DNA of 64,000 nucleotides, from contig NZ_CP100355.1 in NCBI RefSeq assembly GCF_024204665.1, positions 2,709,451 through 2,773,450 of the forward strand, read 5' to 3'. The notes under the pieces were generated by a model. That model worked only from the letters and a program-made list of their open reading frames with translations, was not told the origin of the DNA and made no database searches. Made by a program: the position numbers and the translations under genes. The stretch comes from Natronosalvus rutilus (GTDB lineage Archaea > Halobacteriota > Halobacteria > Halobacteriales > Natrialbaceae). How positions within the stretch are numbered: position 1 is the first letter of the stretch; every line of letters begins with the position of its first letter. Positions 57,197-61,147 of this stretch are shown here, piece after piece.

Positions 57197-59011
57197 CTAT
57201 ATCCTCCAGCTGGATGGGATAAACATACTTTCTTCAATAAAGCCCCAGTCATCGAAGTCGTTCGGGCCTGCACTTCCGTCAGAATAGCCGTAAGATCCGC
57301 TTGGGTGGTTGTAGTTCATGACGCTCGGATACTGGGAATAGGAGTACTTCGTCGAGTCGATCCCCTCAAATTCACCCGATCCAAATCCGAGCCCCAGGGA
57401 ATGACCTAGCTCGTGCATCACGACAGATCCAATCTCATTATATCTGGGTTCTTCGACCACCATAGAGCCGTACCCTCCAAGGCCTACGACATTCGATGAT
57501 TCCTCACTCCCCTCTACATCACTGGCGACGAGCAGGTAGTGATATGCATATCCCGATTTGTCAAAATATTCTTCCTGGTAGTCATAGAGGCTATCTGTGT
57601 CCGTTGATGGTTCTTCGGGAACGGTCTCATCGAAGATGAAATGTAAGTCAATCCCAGTCGATCCATCTGGGTTTTCTACTGGCGCGTCTTTGAACTCTTG
57701 GACGATAGGCCTGGTATCGTATACTGTGAGACTTCCCCCTTGCATTTGGTCAACTTCAACGTAGATATCAGTTCGAAGCGGATCCGCATCTGGGAATAGA
57801 TCTTGTCTGTGGACTTCGGCGCCGTCCGCGAGGCCGTCCCCATCCGTATCTTTGTTTACCGGGTCAGTTTGGTATTCGTGCACCTCTTTGCCGTCCTCGA
57901 GGCCATCGTCGTCGGAGTCCGCGTTTAGTGGGTCAGATCCAATGTCAACCTCATTGCCATCCTTGAGGCCATCGCCGTCGGAATCTTCTTCGGTTGGATC
58001 GGTCTCTATCTCTCGTACTTCCTCGTAATCGTCGAGTCCGTCGCCGTCGGTATCGGTCTCGGTTGGATCGGTATTATGGCGAACTTCGTCTCCGTCACTG
58101 AGGCCGTCACCGTCTGTATCTCCATCGAGCGGGTCGGTGTCGTGCTCGTGTACTTCCCTCCCATCTGGGACCGTGTCGCCATCGGTGTCCGATTCGGTCG
58201 GATCGGTGCCGATCTCGACCTCTTCACGATCGTCGAGGCCGTCACCGTCGGTATCGGAATAGGTGGGATCAGTGTCGAGTGTGAGTTCCTCGTTGTCCTC
58301 GAGGCCGTCGCCATCGGTATCACGTTCTCCCGGATCGGTTCCGGCTTCGATCTCGTCGAGATCGGAGAGGCCATCACCGTCAGTGTCTGCCTTGACCGGA
58401 TCGGAACCGTAATCGACCTCCTCACCATCGTCGAGACCGTCGCTATCAGTATCGGCCTCGAGGGGATCGCTTTCGTGGTCGTTGACTTCCGCCCCATCGC
58501 TTAACCCATCACCATCGGTATCCCTCTCGGTCGGGTCAGTACCGTGTTCATTGATCTCGGCGACGTCACTTAATCCGTCACTGTCAGAATCCTTTTGCGA
58601 GGGGTCTGTCCCGTGGGCAAGCACCTCTTCACCATCCTCGATACCGTTCCCAACAGTGTCGGCCTCAAGCGGGTCACTGCCGTACTCATCAACCTCTTCA
58701 CCATCGGAAAGACCATCATCGTCAGTATCGGGGTTCGTTGGGTCCGAATTCACCAGATACACTTCCCGACCGTCGTCAAGGCCGTCGCCGTCCGTATCGG
58801 GTTCAGTCGGATCGGTTCCATGTTCGCCCTCTAAATCATCACTCAGACTATCTCCGTCGGTATCCTCATCCAATGGGTCCGTGCCATCTCGAAGTTCCGA
58901 GAAGACTGATATTCCGTCACCATCTGGGTCAGCAATTGAAGCGCCCGCGAGCGCGCCTGTCGAAAGGACTCCCACCAGAGCAACTACCACAACAATCCGC
59001 TTTGTATCCAT
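57197..59011 (-). CDS. Exported thrombospondin-type-3 repeat protein with zincin-like C-terminal domain
   Basis: A 604-aa secreted protein with an N-terminal signal or anchor (about 1-26). Residues about 28-395 hold 17 consecutive calcium-binding repeats of the form D-x-D-x-D-G-L-x-D-x-x-E-V (TSP3/EF-hand-like). From about 400 a metalloprotease-like domain follows, with [11 protein letters not shown] near residue 532 and a Met-turn-like PSVMNY near residue 557. In metzincins the zinc motif is H-E-x-x-H-x-x-G-x-x-H; here the third ligand position is Phe. Codon use is lower in GC in the protease part. Confidence 0.85.
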
Positions 59012-59055: not shown

Positions 59056-60096
59056 CTACTTGAGCACGTCTCGCGCAGCCTGGGTGAGCTCGAACTCGGT
59101 CGGACTCGCGGACGAATCCTTCTGAACCAGATTGTACTGCGGGAACTTATCCCGGAGCCAGTTACCGATCGTCCGCTTGGTTTTATCCCCGATCTCTGCC
59201 TCGTAGACCTCGTAAATCTCACCAATCTTCGCCGGCTCGATCTCGAGGAGCGCCTCGAGCAACTGGCGTTGCTCACGCGTGACCGCGCTAACCCGCGCCT
59301 TCGCGATATCTCGCTGGGCGATCGGGATGGCGTCGTCGATGATCGCCTCCGAGAGCGACTCCTCTTCGCGAGCGGTCGCCAGATCCAGAGACACCCGGAG
59401 AATATTGATCGCTACCCGCGCGTCGCGAGCTGCGGCGTCGGCGATCTCCTCCAGGTGGTCGTCGTCGACGACACCATCGTGGACACCGACGCGGACGCGC
59501 TCGCGAAGGATTTCCACCAGTTGCTCGTCGTGATACGGATCGAATTTGATCCGATGCATTGTGCCGATCCGGGAGTGCAGGCCCGGCTCGAGATTCCCGA
59601 ACACGGAGTGCTCTTTGTTGGCGATCAAGAGCATGGTGACATCGGGTAACTGGTAGACGTCCCTCAACACGGTGAAATCCTCGAGTTGGTCGGCCTCATC
59701 GAACATGACGACGGCGGGTCCGTCGACGGCGTTCCGAATCCGGTGGAGAAGATCGCCTGGGGCAGCGTTCTCGGCGTTGATCGCTGTCGCGTCGTCGAGC
59801 CCGTTGAGGATCGCCAATAGCGCTCGGCGCCGAGAGTGATCCGACCAGCAGTCGACTTCGGCGGTCGCGACGTCGGCTTCCTCGTGTAGTTCATCGAAAA
59901 TCTGGCGGGCGGTGACGGTCTTGCCCGTTCCTGGCGGGCCGTAGATGAACGCACCCGAGGCGCTGCCGCCGGCGGTGAGCGGCGACAACAGCGAGATGAG
60001 ATGGTCGGTTTCGCCATCGCGGTGGAGGACGTCCTCCGGCTGGGTATCGTCCTCGAGGACCTCCCGGTTGCGAACCAACCTGTCTGTGACGATCAT
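59056..60096 (-). CDS. Orc1/Cdc6-family paralogue encoded in the island
   Basis: A 346-aa AAA+ protein: Walker A is [16 protein letters not shown] near residue 54, Walker B is VVMFDEADQLED near residue 132, and sensor 1 is TMLLIANKEH near residue 157. A winged helix ends the protein (KIGEIYEVYEAEIGDKTKRTIGNWLRD). It is diverged from the chromosomal initiator at 46549. The gene's own upstream DNA has no ORB-like box of the kind seen there. It may start replication of the element or be a relic. Confidence 0.92.
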   Translation of the reverse strand: MIVTDRLVRNREVLEDDTQPEDVLHRDGETDHLISLLSPLTAGGSASGAFIYGPPGTGKTVTARQIFDELHEEADVATAEVDCWSDHSRRRALLAILNGLDDATAINAENAAPGDLLHRIRNAVDGPAVVMFDEADQLEDFTVLRDVYQLPDVTMLLIANKEHSVFGNLEPGLHSRIGTMHRIKFDPYHDEQLVEILRERVRVGVHDGVVDDDHLEEIADAAARDARVAINILRVSLDLATAREEESLSEAIIDDAIPIAQRDIAKARVSAVTREQRQLLEALLEIEPAKIGEIYEVYEAEIGDKTKRTIGNWLRDKFPQYNLVQKDSSASPTEFELTQAARDVLK

Positions 60097-60369
60097 ACCC
60101 GTTGGTCGGCGTGACTGTCAGAAATAGATAGGGGTCCGGTTTCGTACGTTTCGTTCCTCCAGGCGCGCGTAGGTATTCGCCTGCGACTCGAGTCGATTTA
60201 CGACCGATCTGGGCTGTCAGTCGGCGCACGAGCGCTGTTCGCGATGGCGACCGCAAAAATAGATATGCGTTCTGGTAGGACATTCAAAAATCCGGTACCC
60301 GGTAGCCTCGATACACTATACCAGAAAACCGAGAGGAACACCAATCTATAAGGTGGTAGCGATCTAGAG
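60097..60369. other. Divergent intergenic region upstream of the cdc6 paralogue and the structured leader
   Basis: AT-richer than its surroundings. A minus-strand TATA-like CTATCTATTT (60122-60131) serves the cdc6 paralogue. A plus-strand TATA-like CTATAAGG (60346-60353) would place a start site near 60375. A palindromic CCGGTACCCGG lies at 60292-60302. No protein gene is supported. Confidence 0.5.
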
Positions 60370-60454
60370 AACTAACTAGAAAGGAGTTGGTTCGGGAGGA
60401 ATCCCGGCCGCGTGCTGGAACCACGCGACCAACTGCTTTCTGAGGTCAGAAAGC
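60370..60454 (+). ncRNA. Structured RNA leader: three-way junction plus start-proximal hairpin
   Basis: Three perfect Watson-Crick helices nest in 50 nt. The outer helix is AGTTGGT (60385-60391) with ACCAACT (60428-60434). Inside are CGGGA-GGAA-TCCCG (60393-60406, a GNRA-type tetraloop) and CGCGTG-CTGGAAC-CACGCG (60409-60427). A hairpin GCTTTCTGA-GG-TCAGAAAGC (60435-60454) follows at once and holds a GAGG Shine-Dalgarno-like motif 10 nt before the ATG at 60456. AACTAACT (60370-60377) can pair instead with AGTTGGTT (60385-60392), giving an alternative fold. A TATA box about 25 bp upstream fits an RNA starting here. Confidence 0.65.
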
Positions 60455-60455
60455 T

Positions 60456-60875
60456 ATGAGTCAGTCACAGACACCGACGCAAAAAGGTATCGACGACGAA
60501 CCACTTGAGTTGATCCGCCGCGCTGAACACTCCCGCACCACTGTCCGGCGCATCCGCGAACTGCTCGAGGGCGATCGCTGCATCTCGACCATCAAACAGG
60601 GCGACTGGTTTTCGACCATCGAGCACGTCCGCGACGAGACGGGCGTCGATCTCGTACTCTTCAGCGAGAATCGATTCGGCGCCTCGGTCAAAGGTCTGGA
60701 CGAGAGCGGCCTGTGGGTCGTCTCGGCGAGCTACGACGAGCGCGTCGGGTTCGGTAAATCCAAACGGCCGCGCTGGGACGTCGAGGACGGACTGACGTTC
60801 CTCCAGCCGGACGACCCGCACCCGGAGTTCTGCCGACTCGAGGACGCGAAAGCGCGTCTCGAGCAGTATCGATGA
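60456..60875 (+). CDS. Protein of unknown function downstream of the structured leader
   Basis: A 139-aa soluble protein. A helix at about 15-50 (ELIRRAEHSRTTVRRIRELLEGDRCISTI) is followed by a mixed alpha/beta region (VDLVLFSENRFGASVKGL, VVSASYDERVGFG) and a polar tail. I do not recognise a family. It overlaps the next gene's start by 4 bp (ATGA), so the two are translationally coupled. Its start codon sits one base after a 9-bp hairpin, which makes translational control likely. Confidence 0.75.
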   Translation: MSQSQTPTQKGIDDEPLELIRRAEHSRTTVRRIRELLEGDRCISTIKQGDWFSTIEHVRDETGVDLVLFSENRFGASVKGLDESGLWVVSASYDERVGFGKSKRPRWDVEDGLTFLQPDDPHPEFCRLEDAKARLEQYR

Positions 60876-61147
60876 CGCCCGAACGGGCCGTACTCGAGGC
60901 CATCGTCGACGCCGGCCAATCGACGCGGTGTACGACCTGCGGAACTACACTCCGACCGAACGCACTCGTCGAGTGTGTCCTCTTGGAGGACGGCACGCTC
61001 GAGGCGACGCGCTGTTTCGGGTGCCACGAACACGGCCTCGATGGCGACGGCTGGCTCGTCGAGGGCCAGCTCGAACCGTCGATCTCGCCGGCCGGGCGCT
61101 CGCGTTTAGTCCTCAGTGGGGCTACGGTCGTGGATCGGTCGAAATAG
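60872..61147 (+). CDS. Small zinc-ribbon-like protein, second gene of the leader-controlled pair
   Basis: A 91-aa protein with two Cys pairs, CTTCG near residue 20 and CFGCHEHG near residue 48, a likely zinc ribbon. It is coupled to the preceding gene through ATGA overlap. I do not recognise a family. Confidence 0.75.
   Translation: MTPERAVLEAIVDAGQSTRCTTCGTTLRPNALVECVLLEDGTLEATRCFGCHEHGLDGDGWLVEGQLEPSISPAGRSRLVLSGATVVDRSK

Follow-up and report, generated by a model that had tools for sequence, protein, structure and literature searches.

A covarying three-way-junction leader with competing start-codon pairings precedes diverse small genes in haloarchaea: a putative translational switch

What is the role of a compact set of helices placed immediately before a start codon in a haloarchaeal genome? 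The locus lies in a stretch of 64,000 nt of Natronosalvus rutilus (NZ_CP100355.1), called here the window, to which all coordinates refer. A three-way junction at 60385-60434 can be read directly from the sequence, and it is followed by a hairpin separated by a single base from the ATG at 60456. The element and its neighborhood comprise the following features.

59056-60096, minus strand: divergent neighbor, Orc1/Cdc6-type AAA protein (TIGR02928 at E = 1.6e-46, below the cut-off; Cdc6_lid)
60347-60352, plus strand: TATA-like box TATAAG, from the sequence; spacing of 25 nt to strand U in the window
60375-60383, plus strand: expected RNA 5′ end and strand U (AGAAAG, 60378-60383), from TATA spacing and pairing with strand M
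60385-60391, plus strand: 5′ strand of P1, AGTTGGT, forming 7 bp with ACCAACT; from sequence, folding, and covariation
60393-60406, plus strand: P2 hairpin of 5 bp, CGGGA (60393-60397) with TCCCG (60402-60406) and a GGAA loop; from sequence, folding, and covariation
60409-60427, plus strand: P3 hairpin of 6 bp, CGCGTG (60409-60414) with CACGCG (60422-60427); from sequence, folding, and covariation
between 60414 and 60422, plus strand: P3 loop (L3), CTGGAAC in the window; its pattern is kept in the leaders
60428-60434, plus strand: 3′ strand of P1, ACCAACT, starting with the conserved adenine that follows P3
60435-60454, plus strand: start-codon hairpin, GCTTTCTGA (60435-60443) with TCAGAAAGC (60446-60454); from sequence and folding
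60436-60441, plus strand: strand M (CTTTCT), partner of either U or D
60448-60453, plus strand: strand D (AGAAAG), within the 3′ arm of the start-codon hairpin
60456-60875, plus strand: open reading frame for a 139-aa protein without assigned function, the first gene after the leader
60872-61147, plus strand: open reading frame for a 91-aa, possibly zinc-binding protein with two CxxC pairs, overlapping the first gene by 4 nt

A preliminary description of the locus had claimed junction helices of 7, 5, and 6 bp, a 9-bp hairpin one base before the ATG, and a TATA box placed for a start at about 60375. The three helices held on direct reading, by folding, and by covariation. The hairpin was confirmed in position; 8 bp with an AGGT loop, with GAGG inside the hairpin, is the more realistic form, since a ninth pair would close a loop of only 2 nt. 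The TATA box was likewise confirmed, while transcription from it and a start in the 60375 region are inferred from the TATA spacing without transcript data. The leader at 60370-60458 folds at −35.5 kcal/mol (z = −3.65), with only 1 of 200 shuffled sequences equally stable; thus, its fold exceeds chance, and it is kept with covariation in relatives. When the folded stretch was extended to 60370-60480, the optimal structure had P1 lengthened by pairing of AGAAAG (60378-60383) with CTTTCT (60436-60441) and the start hairpin dissolved, a change that gave the first sign of true competition among the strands U, M, and D.

To follow the element beyond the window, a covariance model (R1) was built from the leaders of four relatives, excluding the window because MAFFT had misaligned either it or one relative. 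R1 recovered the window leader at 27.6 bits (E = 1e-4) and, across the 125 genomes of the family searched, returned 81 matches at E ≤ 1e-6, spread over 48 genomes; a single genome, G056, contained 15 matches at E ≤ 1. A second model (R2), built from 35 sequences including the window, matched 93 of 391 genomes and 46 of 86 genera of the class at E ≤ 1e-3, and every match in a 295-genome sample of the phylum fell within the same order. The element occurs on plasmids, virus-like contigs, and chromosomes of haloarchaea: four virus-like contigs (L165, L166, L169, and L171) carry matches above 45 bits, with portal and head proteins encoded on L166 and a tail-like protein on L165, and on plasmid 5 of Halalkalicoccus jeotgali B3 (NC_014302.1) the match stops 13 nt 5′ of an annotated SWIM zinc finger gene. 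Among the matches in G056 (Natrinema halophilum according to its plasmid record; L065-L075), one group of leaders accompanies MYTHTPxYERIS-type genes and has another P2 shape.

The preliminary description had named a covariation analysis of homologues and an Rfam search as its checks; the former found covariation, and the latter gave no match. In Rfam 15, nothing matched the element at E ≤ 1 (window region plus the leaders of eight relatives), and no match reached the gathering score anywhere in the 64-kb window. Membership of a known RNA family was therefore rejected, as was tRNA or tmRNA identity, neither being present in the window. A search of open-access literature found no description of the element, although absence there is weak evidence. 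From these limited negatives it is inferred that the haloarchaeal leader represents an apparently undescribed RNA family.

The junction helices are a conserved RNA structure with class-wide covariation. Among 30 distinct leaders, 98.1% of alignment cells pair, versus 88.1% after shuffling, and 10 of the 19 pairs vary on both sides; among 88 distinct leaders from across the class, the values are 94.4% and 71.8%, with two-sided change in 17 of 19 pairs and 333 two-sided cells compared with 95 in shuffled data. The covariation score for the 88 leaders was 0.520, versus 0.141 for shuffled alignments and at most 0.091 when partners were slid. A referee may object that the alignments were fitted to the model and so biased toward structure; the sliding control and the independent start-codon test described below argue that fitting is not the cause. 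Antisense echoes made up 2 of 91 matches. G.U pairs occur often, and in one P2 pair G.U is the commonest state (20 of 30 leaders), a pattern that RNA, but not a DNA cruciform, would be expected to show. An unpaired adenine between P3 and P1 (J3/1) is present in 84 of 88 leaders, and L3 takes the form YUNNAR (U in 78 and A in 66 of 88). The P2 loop varies across leaders, with the overall shape, the J3/1 adenine, and the L3 loop retained, and unpaired positions are less conserved than those of most metabolite riboswitches.

The position of the element is tightly coupled to translation starts. An ATG opening a frame of at least 38 codons was found 8-26 nt 3′ of the element in 108 of 121 hits. Seven offset positions gave only 5-22 of about 121, and the opposite strand 4 of 121; the covariance model holds no start codon, so this test is independent of it. 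Covariation and the pre-start position together satisfy one criterion for a riboswitch, a conserved structured domain in an mRNA 5′ leader, transcription being inferred. A crude finder placed a TATA-like box 23-27 nt 5′ of the motif in 29 of 64 leaders. If the usual archaeal TATA spacing applies, the RNA would start at strand U, close to where P1 begins.

Competition among U, M, and D is conserved at the sequence level. In 116 of 121 leaders, the outer 3′ strand of P1, or adjoining bases, can pair with the bases preceding the ATG in a stem of 4 bp or more, and in 108 of these 116 the stem terminates 0-1 nt from the ATG. Stem lengths were examined in 64 leaders with dissimilar proteins by taking the longest Watson-Crick stem and permuting D among leaders. 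M:D stems averaged 5.5 bp, versus 3.60 ± 0.13 bp in permuted sets (maximum 4.05 in 1000), and M:U stems averaged 5.89 bp, versus 3.95 ± 0.17 bp; the permutation test is conservative, because many related leaders have M/D types in common. The two stems share M bases in 61 of 64 leaders. The median energy difference between the alternative folds is 1.6 kcal/mol, and in 35 of 60 leaders the difference is at most 3 kcal/mol; the junction core is kept in both folds in the examples printed. One fold is favored by more than 5 kcal/mol in 12 of 60 leaders, and a few have gaps of 7-13 kcal/mol, for which switching would be hard; all energies were computed for 37°C and standard salt rather than molar KCl. 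At the sequence level only, the competition also fulfills a further riboswitch criterion, that of an expression platform able to trade pairing with the sensor domain. The preliminary description had also proposed two exclusive folds, which held in principle, with different strands: its AACTAACT/AGTTGGTT alternative is possible in the window sequence with one G.U pair, but it is not the conserved competitor. Lying at or before the expected transcript start, it was rejected as the switch and replaced by the conserved U/M/D set. Two other candidates were set aside: a DNA operator dyad, ACT-N-AGT, was not claimed (a modest excess of short dyads, with the pattern in 13 of 64), and masking of a Shine-Dalgarno sequence was rejected as a general principle. 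Occlusion of the start codon itself fits better, since many start-hairpin loops lack an SD-like motif.

The reading favored here, with moderate confidence, is that the element is a cis-acting translational switch within an mRNA leader of about 80 nt; transcription, any effect on translation and in which direction, and the trigger are all inferred. In this model, the RNA would start near U and the P1-P2-P3 junction would act as the sensor. With the junction stabilized, M would pair with U in a long P1 and leave D open, and translation would be on; with an unstable junction, M would pair with D to form a hairpin ending 0-1 nt 5′ of the AUG, and initiation would be blocked. A factor that binds the junction and stabilizes P1 would thus turn translation on, and without it the start hairpin would compete. 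A hairpin reaching the AUG is expected to repress on the basis of a haloarchaeal reporter, in which a stabilized 5′-UTR stem-loop abolished translation and a destabilized one gave constant high translation (PMC2636863). As the trigger, a protein is preferred to a small molecule by a narrow edge, because the overall shape, together with the J3/1 adenine and the L3 loop, is retained despite variation of the P2 loop; there are no ligand or binding data. Against the switch stands the lack of transcript data, the RNA being predicted and not seen. The downstream genes offer no common pathway by which a ligand could be named.

The gene behind the leader in the window gives little indication of function. 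The 139-aa protein has no match in Pfam, NCBIfam, or PHROG, and the 91-aa protein has none in Pfam. AlphaFold models the 139-aa protein at pLDDT 85, with residues 1-11 disordered; with neither a family nor a fold match at a useful level, inference of function through this protein was rejected. Single-sequence scans with it found nothing in the genome or viral contig sets, and its few relatives were identified by whole-genome and profile searches: on a Natronosalvus halobius plasmid (89%), in Natrinema ejinorense (G060, about 50%), and in Natrinema thermotolerans, Natribaculum breve (G049), and G056. Inspection and folding showed that all of them carry, 5′ of the start codon, a three-way junction built from different helix sequences; that of N. 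thermotolerans is the most divergent, and the models did not recover it on the right strand. The N. halobius plasmid shares only about 1.2 kb with the window around the leader and carries MCM and AAA-ATPase genes nearby. Distant relatives in other haloarchaea, such as L016 and L034, share a domain with part of the 139-aa protein; they lie inside operons, some as fusions to DNA methyltransferase-like sequence, and showed no leader. Elsewhere in the window, 57197-59011 on the minus strand encodes a protein of 604 aa in which twelve TSP3-type calcium-binding-like repeats were matched, along with a weak match to a metallopeptidase.

The leader is not restricted to the 139-aa family, as an autoregulatory leader of that protein would be, and most copies precede other families. 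The preliminary description had suggested control of the gene pair at 60456-61147, to which the leader is not specific. The downstream proteins are small and diverse: besides the window family, they comprise one of 90-130 aa that carries a GxDxEGxHH-like motif, short proteins near 64 aa in length, a CxxC-containing type of 70 aa, another of 177 aa resembling a SWIM zinc finger protein, and others. Those scanned gave no Pfam match of note, and no ribosomal protein was recognized among them, only a sample having been scanned against libraries. About 14 N-terminal residues (60456-60515 in the window) are common to otherwise unrelated downstream proteins, and at the nucleotide level the pattern GAAAANNGTNNCG occupies codons 9-13 of most leader-bearing genes. 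One of its positions is G in 56 of 64 genes, even though the encoded residue is D, E, A, V, or G; none of five coding-motif segments tested for pairing with the leader exceeded permutation. On the other side, a small gene in divergent orientation commonly begins about 85-130 nt 5′ of the leader (L085-L088, L101-L160) and is often wHTH-like or carries an LLTEREREI motif; the arrangement resembles an immunity or regulator module, and some of these neighbors match winged-helix families in Pfam.

Several known systems share parts of this design. As in translational purine-type riboswitches, an outer P1 closes a multi-helix junction and its 3′ strand can pair with a sequence controlling initiation; in contrast to them, the leader has no known ligand, few conserved unpaired bases, and no Rfam match, its output is the start codon itself, often without a Shine-Dalgarno sequence, and unrelated genes follow it. 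The fluoride riboswitch of Thermococcus kodakarensis, called in 2021 the only experimentally determined archaeal riboswitch (PMC8241225), is likewise an archaeal RNA leader presumed to act on translation, but differs in structure and genes, and the present leader has no Rfam match. Ribosomal-protein leaders such as that of S15 in Halobacteria, which resembles a multistem rRNA junction (PMC7247131), are also structured, cis-acting, and haloarchaeal; they precede ribosomal-protein genes, whereas the present leaders precede small mobile-element genes. The phiH T1 leader with its divergent imm gene offers a similar layout on a haloarchaeal mobile element, in which the promoter of a leadered operon faces a small divergent gene, but that leader is 150 nt long rather than about 80 nt. 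R2 found no match at E ≤ 0.4 in the stretches of phiH1, phiCh1, and ChaoS9 searched, and homology to their immunity regions was rejected, the motif being absent from those stretches.

Other explanations of the element must be weighed against the switch. The closest is a fixed 5′ leader without true switching, in which the junction would protect the mRNA 5′ end or recruit a factor and the hairpin would be a constant brake. Retention of structure despite sequence change and the leaders that prefer one state by more than 5 kcal/mol speak for it; however, M is complementary to both U and D through overlapping bases, each above permutation, and a fixed structure needs no such double complementarity, making this reading unlikely. 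A sense/antisense or processing element like the phiH early leader is much harder to sustain. Here, an antisense RNA or RNase would target the leader, which would act with a divergent repressor to control the early operon of mobile elements. In its favor, the annotation of phiH describes T1 as an early transcript and includes a divergent immunity gene as well as an antisense transcript, and many leaders here likewise face a divergent small gene; against it, the phage stretches lack the motif, and intramolecular pairing already explains the covariation within single leaders.

A DNA-level site, such as a cruciform, a recombination site, or a replication-origin element of a mobile element, was the main alternative in the preliminary description. 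It is consistent with the frequent location on plasmids and virus-like contigs, with the Orc1/Cdc6-type gene that adjoins the element in the window and in N. halobius, and with the occurrence of the same 5′ segment before unrelated genes. Nevertheless, G.U pairs would be mismatches in DNA, the element keeps a single orientation to the ATG, and the start hairpin is anchored to that ATG, so this explanation is disfavored and judged very improbable. Equally remote is a small RNA, in which the junction would be released to act in trans and its place before genes would be secondary: the fold is compact and stable, and the number of matches per genome can be high, but a trans-acting RNA has no need of tight coupling to the start codon and D. 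The riboswitch-like or protein-binding leader of the preliminary description thus remains the best supported reading, by class-wide covariation, sense-strand position before starts, and a two-state design.

A bolder form of the switch reading is that one class-wide family, common to plasmids, viruses, and chromosomes, subjects many small genes, unrelated except for their shared N-terminal coding segment, to one host signal or host protein, with control at the start codon; this joint claim is slightly less likely to hold than to fail. Natural RNA switches are almost unknown in archaea, with one experimentally determined riboswitch named as of 2021 (PMC8241225). A leader family with strong covariation, present in about half of the sampled haloarchaeal genera and visibly designed for two states at the start codon, makes RNA-level control in archaea directly testable in tractable species, and the covariance models provide a means to find and annotate the genes that carry it. 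That the leader recurs ahead of unrelated genes, frequently on mobile elements, suggests that plasmids and viruses sense a shared signal.
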